Source of the DNA: an uncultured Hellea sp.
Lineage (GTDB): Bacteria; Pseudomonadota; Alphaproteobacteria; Caulobacterales; Maricaulaceae
Direction: 5' to 3'
Length of the DNA: 64,000 nucleotides
Assembly (NCBI GenBank): GCA_938007935.1
Contig: CALLMD010000031.1
Span: forward strand, 62,001-126,000
This document shows positions 18,325 to 47,231 of the stretch, piece after piece (the stretch's first letter is position 1; each line of letters opens with the position of its first letter). The notes below the pieces were generated by a model, which was not told the DNA's origin, made no database searches, and saw only the letters and a program-made list of their open reading frames with translations. A program made the translations under genes and the position numbers.

Positions 18325-18337
18325 TTAAGTATCCGTT

Positions 18338-18967
18338 TTATGAATGCGCGATCGTAATCGCGTCTTTGGCTAATTTAGTGATAGCCCCGAAGTCACCGGC
18401 TTCAATCGCGTCTTTAGGCGTAAGCCAAGAGCCGCCACAGGCCAGTACAGCGGGTACAGCAAGATAATCATTTAGATTTGCAGGGTTGACGCCCCCAGTG
18501 GGCATAAAGCGCACATCGCGATAAACAGAAGATAACGCTTTGAGCATTTTTGGTCCTCCGACGAGTGACGCCGGAAAAAGTTTCACGGTGCGAAGGCCCA
18601 TATTCCAGGCTTGCTGCAGTTCTGTTGCTGTAGAGATGCCTGGCAGGATTGGAATCCCAGCTCCATTGGCAACATCAACTGAAGCCGCATCCAATCCAGG
18701 AGAGACAATGAAGCTAGCCCCTCGCCGTATGACCTCTTCGCTTTGAGCCGCACTGAGAACGGTTCCTGCGCCCACATGGGCATCTGGAAACTCTTTGGCG
18801 ATAGCTTCAAGGCAATCAAGCGCCGCATCCGTGCGAAGGACCACTTCGAGAACATCCAACCCGCCTGCGAGCAAGGCTTCTGAAATCTTTAGGGCTGTTT
18901 TTGGATCATCTGATTGCACAAGCGGAACGACCCGCTTGGCTTCAAGGGATTGAATAAGGTCTGTCAT
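18338..18967 (-). CDS. eda: KDPG (2-dehydro-3-deoxy-6-phosphogluconate) aldolase
   Basis: VVPLVQSDDPKTALKISEALLAGGLDVLEVVLRT, HVGAGTVLS, PGISTATELQQAWNMGLRTVKLFPAS, FMPTGGVNPANLNDYL. Confidence 0.96.
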   Translation of the reverse strand: MTDLIQSLEAKRVVPLVQSDDPKTALKISEALLAGGLDVLEVVLRTDAALDCLEAIAKEFPDAHVGAGTVLSAAQSEEVIRRGASFIVSPGLDAASVDVANGAGIPILPGISTATELQQAWNMGLRTVKLFPASLVGGPKMLKALSSVYRDVRFMPTGGVNPANLNDYLAVPAVLACGGSWLTPKDAIEAGDFGAITKLAKDAITIAHS

Positions 18968-18977
18968 TTAATAGGTC

Positions 18978-19733
18978 CTAAGAGTAGTACATACCGCCGT
19001 TAATGTCGATATTCGCGCCCGTGATATAAGATGACCTGTCAGATGCAAGATAAACAACCGTATCGGCGCAATCATCCGGATGCCCTTGCCGGCGAAGCGG
19101 GACTGTCGCTTCTACGTTTCGGCGCGCCTCATCCGTGGAAAAGGTATCGTGGAAGGTTGTCGCAATCATCCCTGGGTTAAGCGCATTACAGCGAATGCCT
19201 TGCGGACCAAGTTCTTTTGCCATAGCGCGCGTGAAAGCACTGACAGCGCCTTTAGATGTGCAATAAGCTGATGACCCATTACCGCCGCCATTTTGTCCTG
19301 CTAATGAAGCTAAGTTCACAATAGAGCTGCCCGCGGGCATATGCGGAACAACGGCTTGTGTCGCTAGAAATGTCGAATTCATGTTGAGGGACATGACGTG
19401 GTTGAAGAAATCTTCGTCCATTTCGGTGATCTTTTTGCGCGCCACTAAACCGCCGACATTATTGACGAGAATATGAATGTCCTTGCCGAAAGCTTTCACA
19501 GTCTGGGCAACTAAATTCTCAACATCTGCCTTTTTCATCATGTCGCCTTTGACGAGTATGGCTTCGCCGCCCACTTTCTCGATAGCAGAGACAGTCTCTT
19601 CGCCAGCCGCTTTACTGCTATGATAATTTACAACAACTTTCGCGCCAGCCTCAGCCAATTTAATTGAACAAGAGCGTCCGATATCTCGTGTACCGCCTGT
19701 GACGATTGCAACTCTTCCCGAAAGATCTTTCAT
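18978..19733 (-). CDS. SDR-family oxidoreductase, candidate DEH reductase of alginate catabolism
   Basis: Rossmann motif VTGGTRDIGRSCSIKLAEAG, NNVGG, catalytic SSAYCTSKGA; operon with kdgK/eda/PL17/PL6. Confidence 0.9.
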   Translation of the reverse strand: MKDLSGRVAIVTGGTRDIGRSCSIKLAEAGAKVVVNYHSSKAAGEETVSAIEKVGGEAILVKGDMMKKADVENLVAQTVKAFGKDIHILVNNVGGLVARKKITEMDEDFFNHVMSLNMNSTFLATQAVVPHMPAGSSIVNLASLAGQNGGGNGSSAYCTSKGAVSAFTRAMAKELGPQGIRCNALNPGMIATTFHDTFSTDEARRNVEATVPLRRQGHPDDCADTVVYLASDRSSYITGANIDINGGMYYS

Positions 19734-19759
19734 CTTTAGTCCTTAAATTTTATTTCCAA

Positions 19760-20641
19760 TTACTTCTTAAGCTTGACGAAGTAGTCGAAGATTTCTGGAA
19801 CATTTCCATCACCCATACCCGCATCAACGGCGGCCTGTAGGCTTTTAGATGTCGCTTCAGCCACTAAGGAAACCGACCCTAAATCTGACACCATCTGTGC
19901 GAAATAACCTAAGTCCTTGTTTGCATTGTTAATGGAGAAGCCCAAATCGCTGTTACCATCCACGGCGTAGTTCTTACAGAACTTCATGAAAGGTGAATTA
20001 GACGGGCCTGCTGACATGATATCGTAAAGCTGCTGACGATCAACGCCTGCAAGCTCAGCGGCTGCGAAAGCTTGTGACATAGCCGTAACCGTCGTCATGC
20101 CCATGAAGTTATTGATAAGCTTCGTTGTATGCCCTGCGCCAAGAGCGCCAAGGTAGAAGACGTTCTCGCCCTGCTCTTTAAGCATAGACTCATATTTGTC
20201 GAAAGTCGCCTTGTCACCAGCCGCCATAATGTTCAGCAGGCCATCTTTAGCATGTGCAGGCGTACGGCCCAGAGGTGCGTCAATCATGCCTACACCCTTT
20301 TTAGCTAGGTCAGCGCCAATCTTCTTAGTTGAAGCCGGAATAGATGTACCAAAGTCAATAAGGACAGAGCCTTCTTTGATACCTTCAAGAACGCCGTTCT
20401 CGCCATAAACAATCTTCTCTACAACAGCAGATGTTGTTAGGCAGAATTGAACGATGTCAGCTTTTTCAGCAAGTTCCTTTGGCGAGCTCGCTTGTGTAGC
20501 ATTTCCGCGCGCTAAGACTGTATCAACAGCATCCTGGTTCAGATCCATAACAATGACTTCAAAGCCGCGCTTTTGAAGGTTTTCGACCATGTTTCCGCCC
20601 ATGAGGCCAAGGCCGATAAATCCGATGATTGGTTTTGACAT
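19760..20641 (-). CDS. 3-hydroxyisobutyrate dehydrogenase / tartronate-semialdehyde reductase family oxidoreductase
   Basis: IGFIGLGLMGGNMVENLQKRGFEVIVMDLN, DAPLGRTPAHAKDGLLNIMAAG, GHTTKLINNFMG. Confidence 0.93.
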   Translation of the reverse strand: MSKPIIGFIGLGLMGGNMVENLQKRGFEVIVMDLNQDAVDTVLARGNATQASSPKELAEKADIVQFCLTTSAVVEKIVYGENGVLEGIKEGSVLIDFGTSIPASTKKIGADLAKKGVGMIDAPLGRTPAHAKDGLLNIMAAGDKATFDKYESMLKEQGENVFYLGALGAGHTTKLINNFMGMTTVTAMSQAFAAAELAGVDRQQLYDIMSAGPSNSPFMKFCKNYAVDGNSDLGFSINNANKDLGYFAQMVSDLGSVSLVAEATSKSLQAAVDAGMGDGNVPEIFDYFVKLKK

Positions 20642-20683
20642 TAGATGTCTCCTATACTTATTTCTGTAACATTTAAGTTTGAA

Positions 20684-22000
20684 TTATCCGACTTTTACGC
20701 CGCGTGGTTTTAAAGGTTCAATTTTGCCGCATAAGAACAACACACTTGCAATAGCTGTTAATGCTAAAATAGCTCCGAGAATAAAGACGGTCGAATAATT
20801 CGCCCCCTTCGTCATAATTGGAACTAAAAGCGTCAAAACAAATGCGGTTAACTTGGCTGCCATTCCCGCAAAACCAGCTAATGTACCCACTGTTCTTCCG
20901 CCGTAAAAGTCACTGGGAAGTGTCTGAACATTACCAATTGCCGTTTGAAAACCGAACAAAATTATAAACATCAGCGTCAACGCCATAACTGGCGTTGTAG
21001 CAACTGACATAGCGAGCAAAGATGGCAACATAATCAAGCAGCCAAGAATAATTACGAACTTACGTGTTTTATCAACACTCCAACCTGATGAGAGACGGTT
21101 TTGCGCTAACAGGCCGCCAAACCATGCACCAAACATAGCACCAACAAACGGGATCCAACCAGACCCAACAAGGTCTTTAACGTTGTAACCGTGAACTTCG
21201 AACAAATATGTTGGAATCCAAACGATGAACAACCACCAGATTGGATCAATCGCTGCAGAGGCTATGATAACACCCCAACTCTGCTTACGAGACAAAAGTT
21301 CTCCAGTATTTGGATTGTAGCCACCATCATGAGTCCCATCGCCATCGACATCTTCATTAATTTGACCACTTAGGATATATTCACGTTCGTCATCGGACAG
21401 CCATGAGTGAGCTTTTGGCGGGGCTTTAACAATAATGAGCCATGGGATTAACCAAAGCAAACCAAGCGCTCCTATTAGAATAAAGACCATCTTCCAGTCC
21501 ATATAAATAGATAGGTAACCAATAAGTGGAATTGCGATAATCCCTCCAATGGCGGCGCCAGAGTTAAAAATACCCTGTGCAAATGCACGTTCTTTTGTCG
21601 GGAACCATTCGGCATTCGCCTTTGCGGCGCCCGGCCAGTTACCGGCCTCTGCGACGCCTAGTAATGCTCGGAAGAAACTTAAACTCCAAACGCCTTTAGC
21701 GAAGGCATGCAAAGCCGTTGCGAGTGACCAAATACCAATAGAAAGCGCAAAGCCAATACGTGTGCCAACCCAGTCAAAGATTTTACCGAAGATAGCCTGA
21801 CCAAAGGCATAGGCAAAAATAAAGACCGATGAGATTATGCCTAAAATAGCTTTGTGCCCATCTGCATCCATATCAGGAAACATATCTGGAGCCATTTGAG
21901 CTGGCCATAGAACTGTAATGGCTTGACGATCAATATAATTAATAATTGTCGCTAAGGCGACAAGCCCGACAACGACCCAACGCAACTTCCCCTTCATCAT
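20684..22000 (-). CDS. MFS transporter, hexuronate (ExuT-like)/oligouronate type
   Basis: RWVVVGLVALATIINYIDRQAITVLWPAQM and GVAEAGNWPGAAKANAEWFPTKERAFAQGIFNSGAAIGGI; operon position. Confidence 0.92.
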   Translation of the reverse strand: MMKGKLRWVVVGLVALATIINYIDRQAITVLWPAQMAPDMFPDMDADGHKAILGIISSVFIFAYAFGQAIFGKIFDWVGTRIGFALSIGIWSLATALHAFAKGVWSLSFFRALLGVAEAGNWPGAAKANAEWFPTKERAFAQGIFNSGAAIGGIIAIPLIGYLSIYMDWKMVFILIGALGLLWLIPWLIIVKAPPKAHSWLSDDEREYILSGQINEDVDGDGTHDGGYNPNTGELLSRKQSWGVIIASAAIDPIWWLFIVWIPTYLFEVHGYNVKDLVGSGWIPFVGAMFGAWFGGLLAQNRLSSGWSVDKTRKFVIILGCLIMLPSLLAMSVATTPVMALTLMFIILFGFQTAIGNVQTLPSDFYGGRTVGTLAGFAGMAAKLTAFVLTLLVPIMTKGANYSTVFILGAILALTAIASVLFLCGKIEPLKPRGVKVG

Positions 22001-22371
22001 GACGTTTGTTCCGCTGGCTTTTCGCCTTTATAATAATTTTCGAAAAAGTCTTCTCGGATAGGTGTGAACATGTCCAGCAAAACGCCGGCTTCGATGCAAA
22101 TCGCGCCATGCATGATATGAGGTGTCATCAGAAAACTATCACCTGCCTTGAGGCGCTTCGTTTCTTCGCCAACGGTTACGTCAAAAACACCGCTTTCCAC
22201 ATAGGCAATTTGGCTGTGATAATGCGCGTGCATATAGCCTTCAGCGCCCGTTTCAAATGTAGCCTTCACCAACATGATATCATCACTGTGACTTAGAATT
22301 TGACGCTTGATGCCGGGATCAACATCTTCTTTCGGGACATCCTTGTCGAAAACAAAATTTGTACTTTGCAT
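21997..22371 (-). CDS. kdgF: KdgF-like cupin (linearisation of unsaturated uronates)
   Basis: Cupin pattern HAHYHSQIAYVESGVFDVTVGEETKRLKAGDSFLMTPHIMHGAICIEAGVLLDMFTPIREDFF; located between MFS and PL17. Confidence 0.88.
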   Translation of the reverse strand: MQSTNFVFDKDVPKEDVDPGIKRQILSHSDDIMLVKATFETGAEGYMHAHYHSQIAYVESGVFDVTVGEETKRLKAGDSFLMTPHIMHGAICIEAGVLLDMFTPIREDFFENYYKGEKPAEQTS

Positions 22372-22373
22372 AA

Positions 22374-24560
22374 TTAATTCCCCGCAGATTTATGTTTATT
22401 TGAATGGAAGAGTTTATAGGCGCCCGTCCAAGTTACGGCCTCACCATTTACATCAACCGTGTGCGTGAGGGTTGGGTCAGCATCTCCCGCCAAGCCTAAG
22501 CCAACTCTCTCTCCGTCCTTGGTTTGAATTTGAATATATTCATTTGCTCCGGCTTCGAAATGCGAAAGGGATTTAACCTGACTATGACTTCCGAGCGTAT
22601 ATTCAAGCGTTGGGTTATAATCCCCATGCGGTTCAATAACGGAGACAATAGAGATGCCGTCATTAGTTTTTGCGCGCAGCATAAAGCCGGGCTCATTTTT
22701 AAGGTTGAAATTCGGATCATTGGCCCCAACTTGGGTAAAAACAACTTTGGTTCCATCGGGCACTGCAGATGAAACAGAATAAAACTTCCTGTCCAGCAAC
22801 CAAGTGACTTGAGAGAGACCATCAATAGGCAACGCCTCCGCAAGTTTCCAAAGATATTGGTAGCCATTTTTATTACCAAGCGGTGTGCGTGATGTTGGGT
22901 CGGCCTTCACCTCGAAATTCGTTTCAATTAAATGCCCATTATAGTGGAAGGGCAAATCATAGCTATGTGGGCTTTCTGAGTGAGCTTCAACCAAATCAAT
23001 AATCACAGGGCCGTCGAAAGCGGAATCTTTAATAATTGCAACAGAACGGTCTATCCTTACACCGTCATAAGCCGTTTCGATCTCAGCAGATGTTAGCGTG
23101 ACATTGTCATCATCAATGAATGTCCCAAGTTTCGGGGCGTGCTGATTTCCAACTCTTACATCTCCATCAAAATGGCTTGTTTCGTCTACGACCAAGGCAT
23201 TATGAGAGACAGTTTGCTTTGCATAAGCATTATTTTCAGGGAGATAATGCCCGCCATATTTCGCTTCAACATTCAGGAAACGGGCAGCACCGTAATCGCG
23301 CAGTATTTCGTGGCCTGCATCATAGACGAGCAAACCCATTTTATCGAAATGTCCGTGACCAAGGCCTTGTGATGTGTTTTTAGCAACAACCGCCAAACCT
23401 TTGGGGTCATTAGACGCCCGTAATATATCAAGCGCCCCCTCTGTGCCATCCTGCCCGTCACCCAGCCGCATTGATTTATAATCAAAGGGGGTTGCTTTCC
23501 CAGCCGCCAAATCGCGCGCTAACTTACGGCTTTCCGGCGTGAGAACAAATGTGTCTTGCTCTGCTGCGATGGACAACAATCCGGTGTCACCCGTCAGTTC
23601 ATAAGCAATAGCCACGCCGTTTAGCAGTTCATTTGTCCGAATGCCTTTTTCTTTAATGGCATCATTAATCGGGAAAAATAGGCCGCCATAATTCTGTTGA
23701 ATTAAGCTATAAATAGCCTTTTTTAAGATACCATCACGTTTCTCGAATATCTTATATTCTGGATTATTCTTCTGAACAGCTTGCGCAAATATAACAAATG
23801 GCTTCAGCGCGAACCGATGGTAATACGGCCCTTCATTATAATATCCATCAGGAGAAAAGAGCACGTCCATTTGTTTGAGGAAACCAGCCTCCCCGGATTT
23901 ATCTAACCCCAATAACGCCTTTTGGACATATTCATCATCACCAATTGCATAACCCGTAAGGCCAACAGCGGCTGTTGCCCATGTGCCATGATTGTGGACC
24001 TTGTTGAAAGTTTCTGGCGCTTCCACAGATAGAAAATCTGCCATGTTGCGTAGTAAGTCTTTCTCAATTTTGTCTTGCTGTTCCTGCGAGAGCGTATCTT
24101 TTATAGCATTGTAGCACTGCGCGACATTGAGCAGAAACATGCTTTCGTTCAAATTTTGCCAGAACATTCTTCCAGGGGATTGCTCTTTTTTTGCAGGATG
24201 TAATTTCCAACCCGGATAAACTTCAGCATAATCCATCATGGCTTGCCCTGCGAACTCGGCATATTTTTTATCGCCCGTCAGTGCATAGAGCTGCCCTACA
24301 TCATATAATAAAAAACCATTCGCCTTGTGTGTTTCATGCGTATAACCACCGCCCGGATCTTTGGGAATGGGCATGGCTAGAGGACTATCCATCTTTGTCG
24401 CGAGATTAACTTGCGCAGCCTTTAATGTGCGATCAAACCCAGTCATTTGCCCAGACTTTTTTACGGCATTCGTCATGGTCTTTGGCGATTCAGAGCCCTG
24501 GCAAGCCGTCAGTCCTGCGGTCAAAGCAAGAGCAGATATAAAGCTTAAAGCAAGGCGCAT
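22374..24560 (-). CDS. PL17-type oligoalginate lyase (heparinase II/III-like), lipoprotein
   Basis: Alginate_lyase fold segments (AQVNLATKMDSPLAMPIPKDPGGGYTHETHKANG; VHNHGTWATAAVGLTGYAIGD; SPDGYYNEGPYYHRFAL) and heparinase II/III-like C-domain (GLGHGHFDKMGLLVYDAGHEILRDYGAARFLN). Lipobox LTAC. Confidence 0.93.
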   Translation of the reverse strand: MRLALSFISALALTAGLTACQGSESPKTMTNAVKKSGQMTGFDRTLKAAQVNLATKMDSPLAMPIPKDPGGGYTHETHKANGFLLYDVGQLYALTGDKKYAEFAGQAMMDYAEVYPGWKLHPAKKEQSPGRMFWQNLNESMFLLNVAQCYNAIKDTLSQEQQDKIEKDLLRNMADFLSVEAPETFNKVHNHGTWATAAVGLTGYAIGDDEYVQKALLGLDKSGEAGFLKQMDVLFSPDGYYNEGPYYHRFALKPFVIFAQAVQKNNPEYKIFEKRDGILKKAIYSLIQQNYGGLFFPINDAIKEKGIRTNELLNGVAIAYELTGDTGLLSIAAEQDTFVLTPESRKLARDLAAGKATPFDYKSMRLGDGQDGTEGALDILRASNDPKGLAVVAKNTSQGLGHGHFDKMGLLVYDAGHEILRDYGAARFLNVEAKYGGHYLPENNAYAKQTVSHNALVVDETSHFDGDVRVGNQHAPKLGTFIDDDNVTLTSAEIETAYDGVRIDRSVAIIKDSAFDGPVIIDLVEAHSESPHSYDLPFHYNGHLIETNFEVKADPTSRTPLGNKNGYQYLWKLAEALPIDGLSQVTWLLDRKFYSVSSAVPDGTKVVFTQVGANDPNFNLKNEPGFMLRAKTNDGISIVSVIEPHGDYNPTLEYTLGSHSQVKSLSHFEAGANEYIQIQTKDGERVGLGLAGDADPTLTHTVDVNGEAVTWTGAYKLFHSNKHKSAGN

Positions 24561-26815
24561 TACGGGTTCAGCCCCTGATTATCAGCTATAATAGCTGTGT
24601 TTTCTAAAATACTATTAAGCTCGAAGACCTGCGGCGAAGGCACATCCTCGAATTTATTATTGGTAATACGTGTCTTTGGCTCTCCAACCGTATGATTGAT
24701 CAAAAATGCAGGACTATCCTCAAAGGTATTTCCTGTCATATCAGTCACTTGCACGCCGTGCAGATAGATAGATGCTTTATGCTTATTACGTTTGTCTTTG
24801 CCGACATTAGAGACAGATGAATTAGTCAGCGCGAAATGTGGCCCAAAGGTGCTTTCATCACGACCACCACGATAGTAATCTACAAGCGCGTGCCCTATAT
24901 TTTTAAAACTTGAATCTTCAATGGTCAGATATTCCGCATTATAGATACCGTAATCATCGCTCTCTTTATCGAGTTTGAAAATTGCGCCTGATACATTTTC
25001 AAATTTTGAGTTTTTGATCAGAATATTATCTGCAAATGTTCCCTTTGAAGCCGTGACAATATTAAAGGAATGGTTTGTATCAATATCTCTGAAATTACTG
25101 TCGATAATCTCTAGTCGATAATTGGGCAGCATAGAATAAGGACTCGTCCGAATAACAGAATTACCCGCATAATCTGGACTATCATCCCCTGAAATATTCA
25201 CATTTATAAGCTGCAAACTACCGCCCGCCAATATTTCAAACATGGCGGTACGCTCGAAGGTCAGGTTAACTTCGCCTTCGCCTTTAAATGTTAAAGGCTT
25301 GTCGAGTTTTAGGAATTTATTGGCGACATAATTTCCGGGCGCGAGGACTATTACGTCGCCAGCTCCTGCCGTAGCAATCGCCTCAGACAGAGCTTTTTCT
25401 TTTGGCTCAATATTGATGGTCTTGCCTGACGCAAAAGCGATTAAAGGCTCGGCTTTGGGAAACCATGACACCCCGGTCATATCCTTTGTCGTAACTTTCA
25501 GATTTCGCGCGGCTCCAACATCTTCGTTTGTATTGGGATATAACAATCCATTTTCAGCCCGCTCTAACTTAATTTCTTGAACGTTAAAACCCGTCTTTAA
25601 TTCTGGCGATGGCTCTCCGACCAGAGCATTGTTTTTAAAATCAATCCCGGACATATCGTCATAGATTGTAAAAACATCGCGCCCATCGTCATGATAAATT
25701 AAATTACTTTCAAAGGTACTATCTTCTGGAACACCGCTGCGTTCCTCATCGCTTCCCGCGCCAAGCTGAATATTATCACTATTGATGATGCTGTTATTCT
25801 CTATGCGCGCATTGATAACAGGGTCATAACGGTTGATCGGTCCATTTGGCACGCCGTTCATGACAACCAACGCGCCACCAAATCGTGTTCCTTTAAGGCC
25901 TTCCATGTAATTATTGCGTATGGTCTGACCTGCATTAATCACACGAATACCACCCGTATGGTCTGCATCATTTCCTAAGAACACATTACCTTCAACAAGG
26001 TTATTATTCCCATGGCGCATCGTGAGCGTGCCGCGCGATTGGTAAAATGTATTATTCAAAAACTCATTCTTACCAGATTTATTAGAAATGATTTCCAGCT
26101 CACCATCACAGCGGTCAAAGTAATTATTCTCAACAGTGGTAAAGCTGTTCTTTCGTGAGTGATGGCTCGTTCCAATTCTTAGTGTTTCTCCGCCATTCGA
26201 CCCAAGTATAGGCCGCGGGCCAAAATAATTATGATCAATACGGTGATAGTTTTCTAGGCTTTCCTCCGTATTCAAGCGCACCGCCATGGTGACGCCTTTA
26301 TTACGCTTCCCAACAAGGTGATTGTGGTCAAAGCGGTTATGCTTGCCATACATCATTACCCAAAAATCAACTTCATAACGCTCTGGCTGATTATAATTAT
26401 CAATGACGATTTCGGTTACGCGTGAATTGTTAGCAAGATTGTTCTTATTCTGACGAAAGGAAATCACTTCACTCGTTGGTGTATACCCGTCTTTAAAGAC
26501 CAAACCTGATACTTCGAGATATTCACCCGCCAGACGTAGATTTGACTGCCCCGTCAAGATGACTTCGCCCTTGGTCTCGGCGGTTAAGGTAATCGGATTA
26601 TCTTTCTTACCCTTACCTTTAAATAGAATTTCAAAATCATCCCAGGTTCCATTGGCTAATTTTATGACGTCCCCAGGACCAGCCTTGTCTAAGGCCTCTT
26701 TATATGCGTCTTGATCTTGGACGAGATATTCTTCAGCTTGCACTTCGCAGCCAGAAATACCGACAGCAACGCTTAGAATAATGACAGGTTTGAGCCAGTT
26801 TCGCAAAACATTCAT
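24560..26815 (-). CDS. PL6-type alginate lyase (two parallel beta-helix domains), lipoprotein
   Basis: GDVIKLANGTWDDFEILFKGKGKKDNPITLTAETKGEVILTGQSNLRLAGEYLEVSGLVFKDGYTP, MAVRLNTEESLENYHRIDHNYFGPRPILGSNGGETLRIGTSHHS, and a second beta-helix domain after ~470. Lipobox ISGC. Confidence 0.95.
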   Translation of the reverse strand: MNVLRNWLKPVIILSVAVGISGCEVQAEEYLVQDQDAYKEALDKAGPGDVIKLANGTWDDFEILFKGKGKKDNPITLTAETKGEVILTGQSNLRLAGEYLEVSGLVFKDGYTPTSEVISFRQNKNNLANNSRVTEIVIDNYNQPERYEVDFWVMMYGKHNRFDHNHLVGKRNKGVTMAVRLNTEESLENYHRIDHNYFGPRPILGSNGGETLRIGTSHHSRKNSFTTVENNYFDRCDGELEIISNKSGKNEFLNNTFYQSRGTLTMRHGNNNLVEGNVFLGNDADHTGGIRVINAGQTIRNNYMEGLKGTRFGGALVVMNGVPNGPINRYDPVINARIENNSIINSDNIQLGAGSDEERSGVPEDSTFESNLIYHDDGRDVFTIYDDMSGIDFKNNALVGEPSPELKTGFNVQEIKLERAENGLLYPNTNEDVGAARNLKVTTKDMTGVSWFPKAEPLIAFASGKTINIEPKEKALSEAIATAGAGDVIVLAPGNYVANKFLKLDKPLTFKGEGEVNLTFERTAMFEILAGGSLQLINVNISGDDSPDYAGNSVIRTSPYSMLPNYRLEIIDSNFRDIDTNHSFNIVTASKGTFADNILIKNSKFENVSGAIFKLDKESDDYGIYNAEYLTIEDSSFKNIGHALVDYYRGGRDESTFGPHFALTNSSVSNVGKDKRNKHKASIYLHGVQVTDMTGNTFEDSPAFLINHTVGEPKTRITNNKFEDVPSPQVFELNSILENTAIIADNQGLNP

Positions 26816-26880
26816 GCTATGCTATTCCCCTGAATTATCCCTCTCGCACCATTACAAGCGGACCTTCTATTTTGAAGGAA

Positions 26881-26952
26881 AATATCTGTAAAACAGGCGG
26901 TTTTGTCAACCAATATATTAAACCAATTTATATAAATTGGTATATAACTAGT
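26881..26952 (-). promoter_or_regulatory. Operator/promoter upstream of the PL6 operon: palindrome ACCAATTTATATAAATTGGT (26922-26941), third half-site ATATAACTAGT, TTGACA (26904-26909), GATATT -10-like (26881-26886) with 17-nt spacer
   Basis: Perfect 20-bp inverted repeat read directly; the same module occurs upstream of both TonB receptors. Confidence 0.75.
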
Positions 26953-27694
26953 GAAGCTGCTGTGTCAGCGTAAACCTTGACCGACTCTCAGACGCCTTGC
27001 GCTTAACTTCTTCGTAAGCCGCCTCTTCAGAAGCCACTAAAAGCGCTTCGATCATGCGATTAAAATGAGCCCGCATTGCGCTTCTGGCTGTCGCTGGATC
27101 TCTATTTTTGAGAGCGTCCAATATTGCTGCATGCTCGTCTTCACGATGACTGCTATCTTTATCACAAACTGACTTATATACGTTTTGAAGCTGCGCAGCT
27201 TCAGTGCGCATCTTCCACATACTATCTATGACAAATATAATTGCATGATTATTTGTCGAGCGGGCTATGGTCATGTGAAAGGCTTCATCGGCTTCATCAG
27301 CTGTTATATCCGCCTCAACCTTTCCTGACATAATTTCGATATAACCCTCTAACTCTTTAATCGCCTCATCGGTAATGATAGGCGCAGCTAAAGCAGCCGA
27401 CTCTGCCTCAAACAGAGCGCGGGCTTCAGTAAGCTCAAATGGCCCGACTTTGGGCAGACCATTTAAAGCTTTATTACTGCCATCCAGAACATAAGCACCA
27501 GACCCAACTTTAATCTCGAGCCGACCCTGGGCTTGCAAAGCGATTTCCGCTTCGCGAACAGCAACGCGGCTTACACCGAATTTTGTGGCCAGATCTCGCT
27601 CACCGGGCAAGCGACTTCCCGCAGGGAAGACGCCAGAATCGATAAGTTCTAAAATCTGATTAGCAACAGAATGATATAAACGTTTTTCAACCAT
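26948..27694 (-). CDS. GntR-family (FadR subfamily) transcriptional regulator of the alginate locus
   Basis: wHTH YHSVANQILELIDSGVFPAGSRLPGERDLATKFGVSRVAVREAEIALQAQGRLEIKVGSGAYVLDG; FCD C-domain. Confidence 0.95.
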   Translation of the reverse strand: MVEKRLYHSVANQILELIDSGVFPAGSRLPGERDLATKFGVSRVAVREAEIALQAQGRLEIKVGSGAYVLDGSNKALNGLPKVGPFELTEARALFEAESAALAAPIITDEAIKELEGYIEIMSGKVEADITADEADEAFHMTIARSTNNHAIIFVIDSMWKMRTEAAQLQNVYKSVCDKDSSHREDEHAAILDALKNRDPATARSAMRAHFNRMIEALLVASEEAAYEEVKRKASESRSRFTLTQQLH

Positions 27695-27706
27695 GCCCCA
27701 ACTTAT

Positions 27707-27744
27707 ACCAATTATTCTTGTTTCACAATATTGGTATAACCAGT
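27707..27744. promoter_or_regulatory. Candidate GntR operator(s) upstream of the gntR gene: TACCAATTATT ... ATTGGTATAACCAGT
   Basis: ATTGGTATAACCAGT at 27730-27744 matches the ATTGGTATGACCAAT core found upstream of the TonB receptors; a further ACCAAT half-site begins at 27707. Confidence 0.65.
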
Positions 27745-27760
27745 TTCACTTGCCGTCAAC

Positions 27761-30700
27761 TTAGAAACGTCCACGAAGTCCGAAGAAGATACGAGGACCA
27801 TAATCATTGACCTCGTAGCGATCATCATCAACGAAAGCAAACTGCTCTTTAGGCTCGCTTGTAATATTGATAATTTCAGCCGAGAGGCGGAAGTTATCAG
27901 TAAGTTTATACGCCGCACGAGCCTCCCAGACACCAACGTCGCCAACATAACGCAAACGCGTTCCATCGGATGTGAACGGCTGGAAATACTGGTCACGATA
28001 TTTGTAGTTCACAGCTAAATCAAGATCTCCAATTCCGTAATAAACTTGTGCGGAAATTGTGTTCTCTGACAGCCCTGGCAGTCCGCCAGGAGCAATAATA
28101 CCCTGGTTTGTCTGAACCAAAGACCCATCAGGCAAACGCGTGAACGCATCACCATAGCGGCTATCCTCAAACTCAAAATCAGAGTCAACATAGTTATAGC
28201 TGATTTTTGCGCCGAGACCGCTCAATAAACCGGGAAGATAAGTGAAACCGTGAGATGCCGTAAGTTCAAGACCAAAAAGATTACTTGTTTGATCACTCGT
28301 CTGCGTGGTCGTCACATCACGCGTAACTGTTTGACCGTTAAATTCGAATGATTCGGGCTGAATAACAGTTTCAAACCCACCTTGAAATGACTTGTAATAC
28401 GCACCAATCGCCAGAATTGAATCTGCATTCGGATACCACTCGAAACTAGCATCGTAATTCCATGACATGAGCGGGTCGAAATTAGGATTACCGACAGCTC
28501 TAATTTCTCCGATGACATCATCAATAGATGCAGCTGTTTCGCTTCCATCATCATCAATATTCGTAGAGAATATACGTGAGAACCCAAGATCTTGCGGGTC
28601 AGCCCGTGACATAGCACGGAAGACACCCATCCGAACAAGCTTATCCTCAGCGACTTCCATAATCAGGTTCGCACTTGGAAGAAGCCTAGTATAGCTATGG
28701 CTCTCCGTAATCTCCTGAACTGCTCCAGGATTGGTGAAATCTGGCCTAACTAGTGAAAATTCACCCTCATCATTTTCAGTAATCGTGATAGCTTCACGGT
28801 AACCAGTCGCTGTGACATCTGTTTGAACCAAACGCGCACCAATATTACCGGAAATTGGTATACCACCAGCAAATGTACTCTCATAATTCGCCATCAAATA
28901 AACCGAAGAAACATCTTCTTGAACATCGACAGTGTTATCACGTTCGACAATCAATTCAGGAATTTCACTGCTTAACAAGGCGATAGGATCTGTCGGGTCT
29001 CCAGATAAATCATTAATACCTGAATCTAGCAGAGCTGCATTAATCTGATCATTGATACTATTGATGAGACCAACACCCGTTTCAGCCACACACCGAGCAT
29101 CAAATGTAGCCCATGAATTCGTTCCAACACTTTGGAAGGCACCCTGATCATCAAAGAATCTATTTGTAACAATATCTCCACTGCGCACACTACTTAGGAA
29201 GTTATTTTCAGGTGTTCCCCCCGAATAACAAGCATCATTAACCTGAGCAATAAACCCGATATAAGTATCAGCTAAATCACCTGAGGAGTCGAAGACTTGC
29301 TGACTTTGAATTTCCAAGTCACGGTTATCTTCGATTTCAAATGTCGTACGGCCAGTTAATCGATTATAGGGATTATTCGCATCAATACCGCCGCCCAAGC
29401 TTAAATAATCGCGCTGACCATATCTAACGCCAGCTTCAAGCTCTTTGAAGAAACCGTCACCAAGATCATAATTAAAATCTAAACTGCCTGACAGAACCTC
29501 ATCTTCACGATGTAGGTCATTGTCGATACGAACGCGCAGACGATCCACAAAGTTAGCCGGATCGTTTACATCAAACTCTTCACTATGCAATGTGAAGAGC
29601 CCAACACCACTATTGCGCTGGTCAAATTCAATAACAGGGGATGCATTTGATTGAATACGAAACTCGAAAGCGCGCTCATCACGCTCAGTCTTTGAATAAC
29701 CAATATCAGCCGTGGCCGTTAAGCGGTTTGTTAATTCATATTCGACATTCAATCCGCCGCCCAGATACGTTTCTTTACGCTCATAATCACCCCCCTGAAT
29801 CTCAATTGAGTTATCTGTAATCGCCCGCAAAACACCTCCCTGAGGCGTCGTAACCAATGTATCAAGCGTCGTCGTACTTGACGTATTTCCACTAGCATCA
29901 ATGACATTAAGACTTGTGTCATTTCGACGGCCACCATTGAACGTCAAATCATTTCTAAGCTCAGACTGAGTCCGTTCTGACCATTGAACATCTAAATTGA
30001 CATCCAAACGATCATTTGGCTGATATTGAAGAGCACCGAAAAGCGCATCGCGCTCATCGCGCGTATCATTTTGACGGAAATGGCGTTGAGATGGCGCAAA
30101 GACGAAAGGAACACCGAAGTCATTGAGCAGACCAGTCTCAGGATTAATAGTTGTATCAACACCCTCTACGCGAGACCCACTCGCATTACGGAAACCCGCC
30201 AATTCTGCAGCTGTCGGACTTGCGCTACCACTTGTGTCGGATAAATCAAAACCTTCAACATTAACATCATCACAATCGTCATCGCCACGACGTCTTGTTT
30301 CCGGGTTGTTAGAAAAACCAGTCGCTGTACCAAGCGATTGAGGCTCAATAAAGCTGGCCAAGCCGTTTGTAATCAAACAAGCTGGGCGTGAGTTACTTGT
30401 TGGCCCTGTCTGGCGCGCTTCAGCTTCTGGCTGAGAGATATCGCTGCGCTGAAAACCGATTGAAAAACCAACATCGCCAGTTCCGACTTCAAATTGATCT
30501 GTATAACTTACTGTACCCCGATAACCAATATCGCCAGCCTCAGTATCACTTTGATCCAATTGGTCAGGATTTACATTCCCCTTGATATCAAATTGAATTC
30601 TTTTCTTCCCATAATCCAGCGGCTTGATTGTTTCGAGATTGATTTGACCCGCAACACCACCTTCAACTTGGCTCGCATTTTGCGTTTTAAAGACTTCAAG

Positions 30701-31132
30701 CTTATTAACCAGTTCAGATGGGAACTGCGAGAAGTTAACAGAGCGATCGCCAGATCCGTTCGTCGCCACACGACCATTTACCACTGTCGATGACAAATAT
30801 GGCCCAAGGCCGCGAACTGAAACTTCTGTCGCGCCGCCATTTTCCCTATGCGAGGCAACACCCGTAATAGTTTCCAAGGCTTCACCAATAGAAAGTGCGG
30901 GAATATCGCCAATTTCATCCGCGGAAAGTCCGTCAACAATTTGTGTATTGTCGCGTTTAAGCGCAATTGCATCTTGAATAACCTGACGCGATCCCGTGAC
31001 AATAACTTCATCGTTAAGGTTATCCTGTGCCAGAGCCGTTTGTGAGAGCGCTAGCATTGAGACGGATACACTCCCCATAAGAAGCGCTTTCGCAGATTTC
31101 ATTTGAATAATATTAGAACGGTACTTCGCCAT
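27761..31132 (-). CDS. TonB-dependent receptor (alginate-locus type)
   Basis: Signal peptide, TonB box-like DEVIVTGSRQ, plug GVASHRENGGATEVSVRGLGPYLSSTVVNGR, C-terminal FGLRGRF. Confidence 0.96.
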   Translation of the reverse strand: MAKYRSNIIQMKSAKALLMGSVSVSMLALSQTALAQDNLNDEVIVTGSRQVIQDAIALKRDNTQIVDGLSADEIGDIPALSIGEALETITGVASHRENGGATEVSVRGLGPYLSSTVVNGRVATNGSGDRSVNFSQFPSELVNKLEVFKTQNASQVEGGVAGQINLETIKPLDYGKKRIQFDIKGNVNPDQLDQSDTEAGDIGYRGTVSYTDQFEVGTGDVGFSIGFQRSDISQPEAEARQTGPTSNSRPACLITNGLASFIEPQSLGTATGFSNNPETRRRGDDDCDDVNVEGFDLSDTSGSASPTAAELAGFRNASGSRVEGVDTTINPETGLLNDFGVPFVFAPSQRHFRQNDTRDERDALFGALQYQPNDRLDVNLDVQWSERTQSELRNDLTFNGGRRNDTSLNVIDASGNTSSTTTLDTLVTTPQGGVLRAITDNSIEIQGGDYERKETYLGGGLNVEYELTNRLTATADIGYSKTERDERAFEFRIQSNASPVIEFDQRNSGVGLFTLHSEEFDVNDPANFVDRLRVRIDNDLHREDEVLSGSLDFNYDLGDGFFKELEAGVRYGQRDYLSLGGGIDANNPYNRLTGRTTFEIEDNRDLEIQSQQVFDSSGDLADTYIGFIAQVNDACYSGGTPENNFLSSVRSGDIVTNRFFDDQGAFQSVGTNSWATFDARCVAETGVGLINSINDQINAALLDSGINDLSGDPTDPIALLSSEIPELIVERDNTVDVQEDVSSVYLMANYESTFAGGIPISGNIGARLVQTDVTATGYREAITITENDEGEFSLVRPDFTNPGAVQEITESHSYTRLLPSANLIMEVAEDKLVRMGVFRAMSRADPQDLGFSRIFSTNIDDDGSETAASIDDVIGEIRAVGNPNFDPLMSWNYDASFEWYPNADSILAIGAYYKSFQGGFETVIQPESFEFNGQTVTRDVTTTQTSDQTSNLFGLELTASHGFTYLPGLLSGLGAKISYNYVDSDFEFEDSRYGDAFTRLPDGSLVQTNQGIIAPGGLPGLSENTISAQVYYGIGDLDLAVNYKYRDQYFQPFTSDGTRLRYVGDVGVWEARAAYKLTDNFRLSAEIINITSEPKEQFAFVDDDRYEVNDYGPRIFFGLRGRF

Positions 31133-31194
31133 TGATCGTCTCCCCTGAGATTATGGTTTAATTTTATAGAATAAGAACCAATAATACGTTATTA

Positions 31195-31242
31195 TGTCAA
31201 CCTATTATGACAACCGATTTACTTATACTGGTATGACCAATG
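31195..31242. promoter_or_regulatory. Operator in the TonB receptor/PL7 divergent intergenic region: ACCGATTTACTTATACTGGTATGACCAATG (31213-31242) with TTGACA (reverse strand, 31195-31200)
   Basis: 30-bp module with the same half-site spacing as the one at 35413-35442. Confidence 0.72.
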
Positions 31243-32234
31243 CATAATACCGCTCAGCTGTTGCTTAATAGTCACGCTTTAAAGTTTCATACTGCCACTA
31301 AAAGTCGCAAATCCCTACTTCAGGATAAGCTTGGTCGAATCTGCTTTAGCTTGATGAGCCTAGTCACCGCCTCTTTAACCTCCCCCATGGTCTTAGCGCA
31401 AACAGGTACCGTGCCGCCTTTAGAGCTCAACGATTGGTATTTAACACTCCCTATTGATGACGATAAAAACGGCAAGGCCGATACTATTAGCGAAACTCAG
31501 CTCGTCAAAGGCTGGACAGATAAGCGTTTTTTTATCCCTCCGAGGATGGTGGATTGGTTTTTCGAGCGCCTATCGCAGGCGCCAAAACATCAAAAAACAC
31601 AAATTACGTCCGAACAGAGCTCCGGGAAATGTTGCGACGCGGGAATACAAAGATAAAAACGTCAGAGCCTGGGAAGAACAACTGGGTTCTCTCGACCGCT
31701 GCAAAACGATACCGCAAAAAGGCGGGCGGTGTTGATGGTGAGCTTCATGCAAGCCTTGCCGTCAACTACGTCACGACCACTGGGGCTAAAAGTGAAGTTG
31801 GCCGCGTTATTATCGGCCAAATTCATGGGCGCGATGACGAACCCGTTCGCCTCTATTATCGCAAGCTCCCCCATCACAGCAAAGGAACGCTTTATTTTGC
31901 GCATGAAGTTAAAGGCCAGAGCGAGGATATTTATATCCCCTTAATCGGCAACCGCGCGAATAAGGCTGATGACCCTATTGATGGCATTGCTCTAAATAAA
32001 GTATTTTCATATTCAATCGTGGCCGCAGGGCACGCTGCTGAAGTCAGTATTCATAAAGAAGGGAAAGTCATTGCCCGCAAACGCATAGATATGAGCAAAA
32101 GCGGATATAATAGCTCTGACGAATATCTCTACTTCAAAGCTGGAGTTTATAATCAAAATAAAACGGGTAATCCAGATGATTACGTCCAAGCCACATTCTA
32201 TTCTATAAGAAATTTGCATAGCCGCGCACGGTAA
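31240..32234 (+). pseudogene. PL7 alginate lyase interrupted by a -1 frameshift at a T7 run (true pseudogene, recoded gene or sequencing indel not resolved)
   Basis: Frame 1 (31240-31656) gives signal peptide and LELNDWYLTLPIDDDKNGKADTIS...KRFF. Frame 3 continues FFYPSEDGGLVFRAPIAGAKTSKNTNYVRTELREMLRRGN ... VGRVIIGQIHG ... YLYFKAGVYNQNK, i.e. PL7 RTELRE, QIH and YFKAGVYNQ motifs. The switch point is TTTTTTT at 31527-31533. Confidence 0.88.
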
Positions 32235-32286
32235 AACCGCTAAGCTCAATGCCAGTGAATTCATCTCATCTAATTTAATTTCTCAC

Positions 32287-32319
32287 AAAAAAAAAAGGGC
32301 GCCGAATAATCGACGGCCC
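32287..32319 (-). terminator. Rho-independent terminator-like hairpin plus T10 for the downstream end of the second TonB receptor gene
   Basis: On the reverse strand GGGC(C)GTCG-ATTATT-CGGCGCCC followed by TTTTTTTTTT. Confidence 0.6.
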
Positions 32320-32341
32320 CTCTTTCAAGAATATTTACTTC

Positions 32342-35320
32342 CTAAAAAGTGTAGCTACCGCCAAAGACAACACGACGATCTGGGTAGCCAACGAAACAGA
32401 TTGGACCTGTGTCGGTAACACAGCGCTGAACAACATTCGATTTGGTTAGGTTCACGCCCTCGACGCCAATGTTGAAGTTATCTGTGACATCATAATTAAT
32501 GCTAGCATTGAGCTGACCACGACTTTCATTGACGACTGGAAAGCTAAATGTTGAGTTAACGCTGGCACCACCGGCAAAGTCGAGTGTCCGGTACTGTTCA
32601 CGCCAAGTGTAACGTGCCCGAGCTGACAAGCCATACTTCTCATAGAAGGCCGTGAGGTTATAGGCGTTCTTGGAGTTATCCAACAATCCGCGCGGCAATG
32701 ACTGGTCGCCTAACACAGTTCGTCCACGTCCGCCTGTCGTATCAACGATCGAACCGCCGCCGAACTTTTGGTATGTGTAATTGGCGAGAATGCCGAAGCC
32801 TGAGGCCCAAGCAAATCCGCCCATACGGTCTTCATAGTCATTAAGCGTATGCTGAAAAGAGACTTCGATACCCTCTTGCGAGATAGAAGCAGTTTCGTTC
32901 ACAACCGTTACAAGGTCTACACAGTAGCCAATTGTTCCAGTAGGCGCGAATTGGTTTGCCTCAACAACTGGGTTGAATATACCTCCGCCTGGACAATCTG
33001 GATTCGTTTCACGAACTAGACCTGATCCTGAATTACCAGCACTAAGCGCAGCTTCGTCTGTAATTTGACTGATGGTAGAGTTTCGCTTTTTGTTAAAGTA
33101 TCCAATACTGAATACGGATCCAGGTGAAAAATACCAATCAGCCGAGATATCGAATGAGTCTGTGACCGAAGGCTGTAGACTTGGATTACCAATTCTGATG
33201 GGCGTATTTTCGTTCTGTGTGAATGTCGTCGCCGTATTGATATTTCCAAACCCAGGACGCAGAATATCCTGATTATAGGCTGCGCGGATTAGAACATTTT
33301 CGACTGGTTCGAACGCGAGGTTAGCTCGCGGCAGGAAGAAGTCATAGGTGCCTGATGTTGTCTGTAGCGACCCACCTCCTCCGGGGGCAGGAACAAACGA
33401 TGTCGAGTCCACATCTGTCTCAATGTATCTTGCACCTACATTACCTCGAAACATTCCAAAGCCGAAATTCGCTTGTGCATAAAATGCATCAGTTGACTCG
33501 TCAACGCTGTAGGATGAACCTTGAAGAAGTTGTACGTTTGCTGTGGTCCGGCCATCAGCTTGTGGCTCAAGAAGGCGTTGCTGGGCGAACGCATTTTCAA
33601 GTGTAGCTAAGGTGCCACTTGGATCGTTAAACGCACGGTCTGGATCAATTAGCAAAAAGTTCTTAACAAACAGCTCGCGACCATCGGCGTCTCCAAAATT
33701 GTCAGGCCCTGGAACAAGTAGGTCTGCGAATAGACGGCCATTGGGACTGTCTTCAAGACGACTAAAGCCACCAATACGGCCCTCGACACGTTGGAACTCG
33801 GTAGAACGGTCGTTGTTGCGGTACCCGACGTCAATAGATGTCAGGAACTCGCCAAATGAACTGCCTTCCAAGTCATATGAGAGATCGAGACGCAAAGATT
33901 CTTCACTATTGTCCGTCGTATTACGCCCAACCCGAACATCATCAATTACGACATTGTTAGGGTCTAGTAGCTGCGCAGCGGTAGGCGCGAATGGCGAGGA
34001 GAAATCAATACCAAAAGAGAGAGACTCGTTGGAGCGATCAAAGATAAACGGTACAGAGTTGTCATTACTTGTTCTTGGGTCGCCCGTTGCTCCGCCGTCA
34101 AGCGGTGTATTCGGGTTAATAAAATTCAGTACGGTGCTGAGGTTAGGGTTTTCCGTTTCGGATGTTGTGTTAGACCACTCTGCACGACCTGAAAGACGGT
34201 CTGTGATATCCCATTCACCGCCCAAAACAAATACATTGTTCACCGTAACCCGCGCACCTGTATCACTAGCGAAACGCAGGTTCGGATCATCATCATCGAC
34301 GCCGAGGTTAACTGGAATACGGCCAGATACAGCCACCTCGCTTACAGTGCCCGGAAAGCCGAAGTCGATTGGCTCAAATGTGTCAATTTCTGCAACTGAG
34401 CGGAGAGAACTTACACCAGAAGCTTGTACACGATAGGAGTCTTGAGCCCGTTGTTGATCATTGACGATAGCATCAAAGTACAACTTCACATTATCGCTAG
34501 GCCTGGCCTCGACCGTGCCTGCAAGGTTAATTGTTTCATATTTAAAGTTTTCCTGTTCTTGAAGCAGGAACTGAATACCAAGGAAATCTCTACCATCAAC
34601 CGAGCGAAGCTGGTCTACATCGGCTCGCGGACGAAAGGAAACTGCATCTTGTTCAGTGTAAGAGCCACTAACGACAAAGCCGATTTCCTGACCAGAGGCG
34701 TTATCCCACTTTTTACCGAGCGCACCAGATAAACGAGGCTTAATGCCTTCTGTACTTAACTCACTATATTCACCTTGAACTCGGACAGAGGCGAGAGTTT
34801 CTTTCAAATCAAGTGGACGAATAGTCCTTAGGTTAACGGTACCACCAACTGAACCCTCAATCGTTGAAGCTTCTGGCGCTTTGATTACCTCAACACCAGC
34901 AATAATAGCTGGGTTGACATCTTCAAAACTGATGCCAACTCGGCCCGAACCAGAACCCACCGTCGAGACACCATTAATTTCAACACGGTTATCGTTAGTA
35001 CCACGAATTTGAACACCTGTACCAACACCGGCCGTTCGTGTGATTTGAATACCTGTGACGTTTTCCAAAACTTCAGCGAGGTTTTGATCTGGAAGCTTAC
35101 CGATATCTTCTGCCAATATAACCTCGACAAGGCTATCCGCATTACGCTTTTCAATGATAGCGTTTTCAAGTGACTGACGGATACCAACTGCGATAACTTC
35201 ATCATCTGGAGCACTTTGCGCCAAAGCCGTTGATGTTACCATCATAGACAATGAAGATCCGATTAGCATTGCTGCTTTTATCGAGCCATAACGGCGGTTT
35301 TTCTGTATCGTTGTTAGCAT
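32342..35320 (-). CDS. TonB-dependent receptor
   Basis: Signal peptide, AVGIRQSLENAIIEKRNADSLVEVILAEDIGKLPDQNLAEVLENVTGIQITRTAGVGTGVQIRG plug, C-terminal VVFGGSYTF. Confidence 0.96.
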   Translation of the reverse strand: MLTTIQKNRRYGSIKAAMLIGSSLSMMVTSTALAQSAPDDEVIAVGIRQSLENAIIEKRNADSLVEVILAEDIGKLPDQNLAEVLENVTGIQITRTAGVGTGVQIRGTNDNRVEINGVSTVGSGSGRVGISFEDVNPAIIAGVEVIKAPEASTIEGSVGGTVNLRTIRPLDLKETLASVRVQGEYSELSTEGIKPRLSGALGKKWDNASGQEIGFVVSGSYTEQDAVSFRPRADVDQLRSVDGRDFLGIQFLLQEQENFKYETINLAGTVEARPSDNVKLYFDAIVNDQQRAQDSYRVQASGVSSLRSVAEIDTFEPIDFGFPGTVSEVAVSGRIPVNLGVDDDDPNLRFASDTGARVTVNNVFVLGGEWDITDRLSGRAEWSNTTSETENPNLSTVLNFINPNTPLDGGATGDPRTSNDNSVPFIFDRSNESLSFGIDFSSPFAPTAAQLLDPNNVVIDDVRVGRNTTDNSEESLRLDLSYDLEGSSFGEFLTSIDVGYRNNDRSTEFQRVEGRIGGFSRLEDSPNGRLFADLLVPGPDNFGDADGRELFVKNFLLIDPDRAFNDPSGTLATLENAFAQQRLLEPQADGRTTANVQLLQGSSYSVDESTDAFYAQANFGFGMFRGNVGARYIETDVDSTSFVPAPGGGGSLQTTSGTYDFFLPRANLAFEPVENVLIRAAYNQDILRPGFGNINTATTFTQNENTPIRIGNPSLQPSVTDSFDISADWYFSPGSVFSIGYFNKKRNSTISQITDEAALSAGNSGSGLVRETNPDCPGGGIFNPVVEANQFAPTGTIGYCVDLVTVVNETASISQEGIEVSFQHTLNDYEDRMGGFAWASGFGILANYTYQKFGGGSIVDTTGGRGRTVLGDQSLPRGLLDNSKNAYNLTAFYEKYGLSARARYTWREQYRTLDFAGGASVNSTFSFPVVNESRGQLNASINYDVTDNFNIGVEGVNLTKSNVVQRCVTDTGPICFVGYPDRRVVFGGSYTF

Positions 35321-35578: not shown

Positions 35579-38227
35579 CTATTCTGGTGGATGACCGATT
35601 AAAGAACGATCCTTGTATCGCAATGTCGATTGTTTTTCTATCGGTACAAAAAATTTCCAACTAGACAATGGTTCAGTATCCCCCACATTATCAGATGTAA
35701 TTAATGTCAATATGAACGCGTCTTGAGGCGCAACTTTGAATTCATAAGTAGGCATAGATTCCTTTCCTTCTTGTGAAATAAGAGCACCATCAGCCTGACG
35801 CATTAAACCTTTAACCGAAGCGGAAAGATGCGGCCAAGGTATTGTCATGTTCACTACATCCTCATTATCACTTGCATTATAAACTAAAAAACGAACTTCG
35901 TTATTTACTCGGGATACGGACTCAATAATCAAACCATCAGACATAGAGAAACCCTGCGCGACTTGGCCAGACTTTAAGGGCTGCAAGTTATACTCCTTTG
36001 CAGCACGCGAGAATTTAACCGGATCATCAGCGCTTGATAGAACTATTGCATAATTATATTTCAGTTCCGATTTTCCAGATAAAAGCTCATTCTTTTTGCC
36101 TCGATAATTAGCTTGCGTATGCGCCAATAAAATATCTGCAAAACTATCACCCCATTGACGCCCAGCTAAACCCTTATCCAATATTGCGACCCCCTTTTGT
36201 GAGGCAGTTAAATGACTTGACCACCCCATTGCCGGCCCAATCGTGGAGTTCAATCCTAAATTTTTATGATCGTAAAAAGATTTCAAGTGCTCAAGATCTC
36301 TAAGCTCACTAGGTTTATCCTGTACAAACCCAAAAGGTGTACCGCGATTTTGGTAAGAAATATTATCTGGCAATGAAAAACGCGCGCTCACTAATAGGCC
36401 ATTAGGAACATTCTGAGTAGAGGTCTCAAATTCAATACGTTTTCCTCTTTTTGGAATTCGGACAAGACGCTTAAGGACCATTCCATTTGAATGGGTATTG
36501 ATTATACTTAAGCTAACAAAAAGCGGTCCATTGGTTTGTCTTATTTTCGCAGGCAGCTGGTCTGAAGAACCAAGGTATTGCAATTTTTCAAGTGGGGATA
36601 AAAAGTCAGACGCGCTTAAACCTTTTTCTAATTTTAAAGGATCATTCATCCACACAATCTTGTTTGAAAATGTCGTTAGCGGTGTACCAGCTTTATCCAA
36701 AATTGATATTATCTCGCCCGTCGAAGCATCAAAATTGACTTTTAGGTCCTCTGTTTCAATGTATCCCGTAAATTCATCTAAAACAGAGCGCTCAGCCTTT
36801 GATGGCATTAAAATATTTCCAGAGAACTGACGCACGCCCCCTTCACATATAGCTGACTGATTTAAAATATCATTCTTTTCACATATCGCGCCGTTTGGTT
36901 GAGTTTTATCATCAGCCCATTGATAGTACCCATTTCGCATCCAGCCAATTGGGTCAAATGCATATGTTTCTTCCATACTATTGGATATCTCATCTAAAAG
37001 TTTTACCGCCATTTGGGTCCGGTCACGAACATTCCATTGTTCTTCACCGATGAACGGGTCATCAGAACCCGCCCCCCACAATAATGCTCGGTCTGCATTA
37101 AGTAATACCATCCACCAAGCATCATGTAGTTCCGCAGATTTATATGAACCGTTATCTTTACCCATAGATAAAGATGACATTATTTCCGTCGAAACTAATT
37201 GATTTTCAAGACTTCTAAACTCTTGTTTAATTTGTGGAAGATTTACCCAAAAGGCATTATAGCTAAAAATACCTGCCTCATCAATTTTTGGTAGACTAAC
37301 ACCGGATTTCAAAGCGTTATCCAGACTGAATTGAAAATCTTCCGTCGTTCCAAGGCACACCTCTCGACCCGTATCATCTTTCACTGCTGTAATCATTTCT
37401 TCTAAGCGCGAAATATCTTCCGGAGCTTCACTATAATCACCATTACCAATAAGCCATAAGAAGGGAAGTTCTGGCTGCAGAGCTGCATCTAAACGAATTT
37501 CAGACAGCATTTGTTCTTTATAGCTGTCTGGCAGTACCCCCTCGCCTTTAAACGCCAAACGCCATTGGGCATAGCTTTTAACATTAGCGACCATTGTCGA
37601 TGCCCCACTGGGGGCAACAAGTTCATATAATTGATTCTTTGTGCTTGAATTCCTCTGATGCACCATCAAATCAATATCTAAAAGGTCTAGATACTCAGAG
37701 ATATTTGGATTTACGCCTAATAGATCAATATACCATGCTATATCTGGGCGAATTCCAATTTCGGAAGAAAACCAATCTTGAGCTATTTGCCCCATTCTAA
37801 AATTAGTTGCGCCTGAGGATAAAGATGAATCATACTCAACGGCAAAGGCATTTGTTAAAGATGCTTTTCCAGACTGAAGTAGTCCAAGGAGTCTGTCATA
37901 CTCTGCTGGACTTAAATTTTTAATAGCGATCGCCGTCGGCACCTCTGAAAACACAAACGGTAGATTGGATTTATCCGCAACATCAATAAAGCTTACATAG
38001 TTGTTCACCATATAGTTTCGCTCCGGAGCAAAACCAGTAAGCCACCCAGTGGCTGTTCCATGAGTATTAGGCACAACCCAAATTGGATTTTCTACATCAA
38101 GGCAATTTTGCGTCTCTGGGCGTGGTATAACATGACTAACGATATACTCTTGAGTGTCGTCAATTTTTTGAGATCTACATGCCTGCAGAAAAGAAACGAT
38201 TATCATGCAAAAAACAAATATTTTCAT
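35579..38227 (-). CDS. Divergent GH38-like (alpha-mannosidase superfamily) lipoprotein
   Basis: Lipobox LQAC. GH38-type segments VPNTHGTATGWL, EYDRLLGLLQSGKASLTNAFAVEYDSSLSSGATNFRMGQIAQDWFSSEIGIRPDIAWYIDLLGVNPNISEYLDLLDIDLMVHQRN, AWWMVLLNADRALLWG. The assignment is superfamily level only. Confidence 0.6.
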   Translation of the reverse strand: MKIFVFCMIIVSFLQACRSQKIDDTQEYIVSHVIPRPETQNCLDVENPIWVVPNTHGTATGWLTGFAPERNYMVNNYVSFIDVADKSNLPFVFSEVPTAIAIKNLSPAEYDRLLGLLQSGKASLTNAFAVEYDSSLSSGATNFRMGQIAQDWFSSEIGIRPDIAWYIDLLGVNPNISEYLDLLDIDLMVHQRNSSTKNQLYELVAPSGASTMVANVKSYAQWRLAFKGEGVLPDSYKEQMLSEIRLDAALQPELPFLWLIGNGDYSEAPEDISRLEEMITAVKDDTGREVCLGTTEDFQFSLDNALKSGVSLPKIDEAGIFSYNAFWVNLPQIKQEFRSLENQLVSTEIMSSLSMGKDNGSYKSAELHDAWWMVLLNADRALLWGAGSDDPFIGEEQWNVRDRTQMAVKLLDEISNSMEETYAFDPIGWMRNGYYQWADDKTQPNGAICEKNDILNQSAICEGGVRQFSGNILMPSKAERSVLDEFTGYIETEDLKVNFDASTGEIISILDKAGTPLTTFSNKIVWMNDPLKLEKGLSASDFLSPLEKLQYLGSSDQLPAKIRQTNGPLFVSLSIINTHSNGMVLKRLVRIPKRGKRIEFETSTQNVPNGLLVSARFSLPDNISYQNRGTPFGFVQDKPSELRDLEHLKSFYDHKNLGLNSTIGPAMGWSSHLTASQKGVAILDKGLAGRQWGDSFADILLAHTQANYRGKKNELLSGKSELKYNYAIVLSSADDPVKFSRAAKEYNLQPLKSGQVAQGFSMSDGLIIESVSRVNNEVRFLVYNASDNEDVVNMTIPWPHLSASVKGLMRQADGALISQEGKESMPTYEFKVAPQDAFILTLITSDNVGDTEPLSSWKFFVPIEKQSTLRYKDRSLIGHPPE

Positions 38228-47162: not shown

Positions 47163-47231
47163 GTACATCAAATCACTTGTTCATCATTGACGCGCAAGGT
47201 AAGGCTCCATTTCGATATAAATGGACCCAAA

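Follow-up and report, generated by a model that had tools for sequence, protein, structure and literature searches.

The locus described here raises the question of why a gene encoding a PL7 alginate lyase is read in two frames that meet exactly at a slippery heptamer, and whether this layout is a built-in switch, a fresh lesion or a flaw of the sequence. The gene lies near the middle of the window, the whole stretch of 64,000 nucleotides that was analyzed. A search of the literature on frameshifted PL7 lyases returned nothing relevant.

The gene opens on the + strand in frame 1 with a single-frame ORF from the ATG at 31240 to 31656 (138 aa), which comprises a leader region and an N-terminal PL7 block to 31533, followed by 40 further codons that are out of frame relative to the lyase and then a stop. 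The frame breaks at a run of seven Ts (31527–31533, + strand), where the frame-1 codons are cgT TTT TTT atc, so that T_TTT_TTT stands in the X_XXY_YYZ register. From 31533 the −1 frame (31533–32234, + strand) stays open for 233 residues up to the stop at 32232–32234, and a coding-potential HMM trained on ORFs of the same genome changed frame only 6 nt beyond the run, at 31539. The −1 part matches Alginate_lyase2 (PF08787) with an E value of 7.3e-48 over profile positions 38–222 of 225, and its score of 163.8 bits passes the curated cut-off of 29.7. The R-T-E-L-R, Q-I-H and Y-F-K-A-G-x-Y blocks have a catalytic role in PL7 lyases. All three, here RTELREM, QIHG and YFKAGVYNQ, lie in the −1 part and align with the solved PL7 lyases 4ozx and 8wok. 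The upstream part supplies the N-terminal block, of which residues 50–98 are 63% identical in the homologue L002, where this block stands directly before the downstream part. Compared with known PL7 lyases (PF08787; solved examples 4ozx, 8wok, 5zu5, and 7w12), the entire downstream part corresponds, including the three blocks, while here one missing base breaks the open frame after the N-terminal block. By its predicted activity the gene encodes a PL7 alginate lyase of the ordinary kind, apparently exported, within an alginate-use cluster. The initial annotation, which had described a PL7 lyase spread over two frames, with a −1 shift at a heptamer in canonical register, with intact downstream motifs and no stop before 32234, is borne out in all these points by the profile match, the aligned blocks, the codon register and the HMM. 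Its statement that frame 1 ends with R-F-F is slightly inaccurate, as this frame runs 40 codons beyond the T-run. Internal restart of the downstream part was considered and rejected: the first available starts are TTG at 31554 and ATG at 31629, and a product that began there would miss both the leader and the first of the conserved blocks, so that it would be unlikely to work. Nor is there a second copy that covers the function, as the gene is the sole PF08787 match in the genome.

Homologues were compared at the junction, 42 of them and three more (45 in all; L015, a short partial match, was excluded). All 45 read through the junction in one continuous frame, the nearest of them being 70–78% identical, and the two-frame layout was found in none of the 45, so that the copy in the window is a singleton. 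The search for an intact copy from a same-species genome gave none, the closest homologue being 78% identical. At the junction an aromatic motif is conserved in the family, [F/Y]-F-[Y/F] in its common form and R-F-F-Y here, which is spelled CGA TAT TTT TAT in L002, CGT TTC TTT TTC in L016, CGT TTT TTC TAC in L128 and CGG TTT TTT TAC in L018. The T-run thus exists because this conserved motif is written in T-rich codons, and one T fewer breaks the frame. The run is interrupted in L002, L016, L017, and L128, and the unbroken gene L024 holds the same in-register T_TTT_TTT (TAT TTT TTT ACC). The neighborhood is also shared. The lyase is flanked by a divergent TonB-dependent receptor gene (27761–31132, − strand), which lies beside the lyase in relatives too, and by a convergent one (32342–35320, − strand); in L126, from the same family as the genome of the window, an intact lyase has receptors of the same kind on both sides, in L002 an intact lyase likewise lies between two receptors, and in L127 an intact lyase adjoins the first receptor and a GntR-type regulator. 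Judged by alignment and gene order, a gene that is syntenic and normally intact is found here in a broken, lineage-specific state. Separately, the contig of L002 (CALJNV010000149.1) is labelled Bacteroidales, although it carries the nearest PL7 homologue (78%) in a receptor-lyase-receptor arrangement as found in this order; it may be either mis-binned or the result of horizontal transfer.

The age of the break was assessed from substitutions. For the downstream part, the window and L002 differ with a pN of 0.14 and a pS of 0.81 (saturated), a pattern as between intact homologues. In a relative-rate test of the two with L016 as the outgroup, 16 and 14 unique residues were counted (chi2 0.13). 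By this pattern, purifying selection acted on the lyase gene up to the very recent past or is acting on it still. Given purifying selection and no acceleration downstream, the break is therefore either recent or absent from the organism. An old, decayed pseudogene can be rejected, with no further stops over 233 codons, a chi2 of 0.13 and no acceleration; the initial annotation had already argued against one, and both the open −1 frame and the substitution pattern agree with it.

We consider that the break is most likely a recent one-base slippage deletion in an otherwise conserved PL7 gene, with a probability of roughly 0.5 on the sequence comparisons given here. The intact gene would have written R-F-F-Y with eight Ts, and the sequenced copy, with seven, would have arisen in this strain by a recent one-base contraction through replication slippage. 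Such a contraction would leave a newly arisen loss-of-function allele, with a 138-aa product from which the catalytic part is missing, and the deletion, if it is real in the organism, would abolish most of the activity. In favor of a recent deletion, no strict candidate other than the lyase lies at a homopolymer in the frame-switch census described below.

A sequencing or assembly error, in which the consensus dropped one of eight Ts and the lyase is intact in the organism itself, is quite possible, if less so than the recent deletion. An error of the consensus would give the same sequence, and the lack of a second lesion in a gene that is otherwise conserved fits an error equally well. A homology-validated singleton frame transition is taken to be either a sequencing error or a recent indel, and such transitions are expected to be mostly sequencing errors (PMC3711429); the lyase is like them in being one copy, homology-validated and at a site unconserved in relatives, and we see no difference from them. 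The assembly is a 42-contig draft, but the T-run lies in the middle of a 160-kb contig, away from the edges. An error also has to be set against the census, in which no second clear homopolymer break was found in 1.57 Mb. Simulated one-base losses in runs of at least six were recovered in 251 of 300 cases (127 of 300 with the strict filter), a sensitivity simulated after the HMM switch penalty, which at 1e-6 had missed the lyase, was loosened to a final setting chosen with the lyase site known. Nine strict frame-switch candidates were obtained in the 1.57 Mb, and in none of the eight besides the lyase was a Pfam domain split between two frames. Some of these eight are clear gene overlaps, such as the ImuB-like and DnaE2-like genes of L114 (7009–11783) in the same genome, which overlap by about 76–97 nt in different frames as judged by their open frames. 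A looser list added nine further switches near a homopolymer, each with an upstream stop within 10 nt, and these look like ordinary gene boundaries. Runs of eight Ts are not depleted either, with 128 in this genome against 37–519 in same-genus genomes (counted in 20 relatives). With only one clear homopolymer break in 1.57 Mb and T8 runs at this level, a generally homopolymer-error-prone assembly was rejected, which tilts the balance towards a real deletion, a single error being still compatible. As a minor observation on these counts, the same-genus genomes G015, G020, and G021 have 434–519 T8 runs in 1.8–2.0 Mb, whereas 128 were counted here in 2.94 Mb; the difference points to a lineage of much higher A+T content within the genus.

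Phase variation, in which the tract would alternate within the population between an off state (T7) and an on state (T8) and so switch a secreted enzyme, is unlikely. A one-unit change in a mononucleotide run is what such toggling would produce, and exported enzymes, of which the lyase would be one, are found among phase-variable genes (PMC3711429). Against this, a run of seven is short and ordinary, as 74 T7 and 171 A7 runs occur in the sampled ORFs, and it is not kept among the homologues, four of which have it interrupted as described above. The broader proposal of a lineage-specific switch at the T7/T8 tract, either on/off or leaky, that controls a secreted "public good" lyase and acts through slippage in replication, by RNA polymerase or by the ribosome, appears improbable as well.

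Slippage in transcription could also put an extra U into some transcripts and thereby yield a useful full-length lyase for low-level function, and we regard this as very doubtful. When bacterial RNA polymerase was assayed with gfp in E. coli, rescue reached about 5% at T7 and was absent from runs shorter than seven Ts (PMC6260861), an effect that is generic to any T7; selection against coding A/T runs is commonly evident at nine bases in many genomes (PMC1088944); and no homologue (0 of 45) keeps a run that needs slippage. The lyase resembles the "pseudo-pseudogenes" rescued by A/T-run slippage (PMC1088944) in having a one-base frame break at an A/T run, but that survey dealt with runs of nine bases, and the T7 of the lyase is at the detection limit of the gfp assay. 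By analogy with that assay, RNA polymerase slippage on the T7 could plausibly let through full-length lyase at a level of a few percent, and such a leak would be incidental to the recent deletion.

The heptamer itself, which had led the initial annotation, was weighed against its base rate in 1.57 Mb (54%) of the same genome, comprising 1,262 ORFs. In these ORFs T_TTT_TTT occurs in register 47 times, i.e., 46 times besides the lyase, and X_XXY_YYZ heptamers of all kinds 2,387 times; within the window, another in-register T_TTT_TTT lies in the ORF at 47187–49079. It is commonplace in this genome because neighboring F codons create such runs, and the heptamer alone is no signal, not exceeding chance. 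The rules for stimulators of programmed −1 frameshifting are SD-like motifs upstream and a hairpin 4–10 nt downstream (PMC4066793). No SD-like stimulator with the motifs and spacing of that survey was found upstream of the T7, and the GC-rich hairpin begins about 31 nt past the run. The 84 nt downstream do fold somewhat better than shuffles (z −2.0, with a second estimate of −1.6), but by the same measure the folding z is lower still at five of the 46 control sites, the lyase ranking sixth lowest of 47. The bases of the hairpin encode an A-P-I-A-G-A stretch and differ there in L002 and L016. The lyase shares with programmed −1 genes of the X_XXY_YYZ type (IS3-family and others, PMC4066793) the in-register U_UUU_UUU at the frame change, and differs from them in lacking conservation, the upstream motif and a standout hairpin at the right distance. 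Programmed −1 ribosomal frameshifting at U_UUU_UUU, giving a long and a short product, is thus most unlikely, its correct register being outweighed by its absence from all 45 homologues, the 46 other heptamers and the lack of a standout stimulator. Of the five options among which the initial annotation had made no choice, a recent mutation and an error remain, and programmed frameshifting falls away. The broken lyase looks like an ordinary case and not like a built-in frameshift switch.

The surroundings give the recent deletion its possible meaning. The PL7 gene belongs to the alginate-use cluster at 17287–35320 of the window, which holds PL17-like (Hepar_II_III_C, Alg17C_C) and PL6-like (Chondroitinase B fold) lyases besides PL7, a PfkB kinase, a KDPG aldolase, an SDR, a 6PGDH-like reductase, an MFS transporter, a GntR/FCD regulator and the two TonB receptors. 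If the deletion is real, the genome would be that of an alginate degrader caught just after the loss of its only PL7 lyase but still equipped with the receptors, the monomer pathway and lyases of the PL17-like and PL6-like types, and this would fit a drift towards oligomers released by others. Otherwise, the locus illustrates that a slippery heptamer found in register where a frame breaks counts as weak evidence when dozens of others occur in the sampled ORFs. Next to the alginate cluster lies a GH38-type glycoside hydrolase gene (35579–38227), an unusual neighbor.
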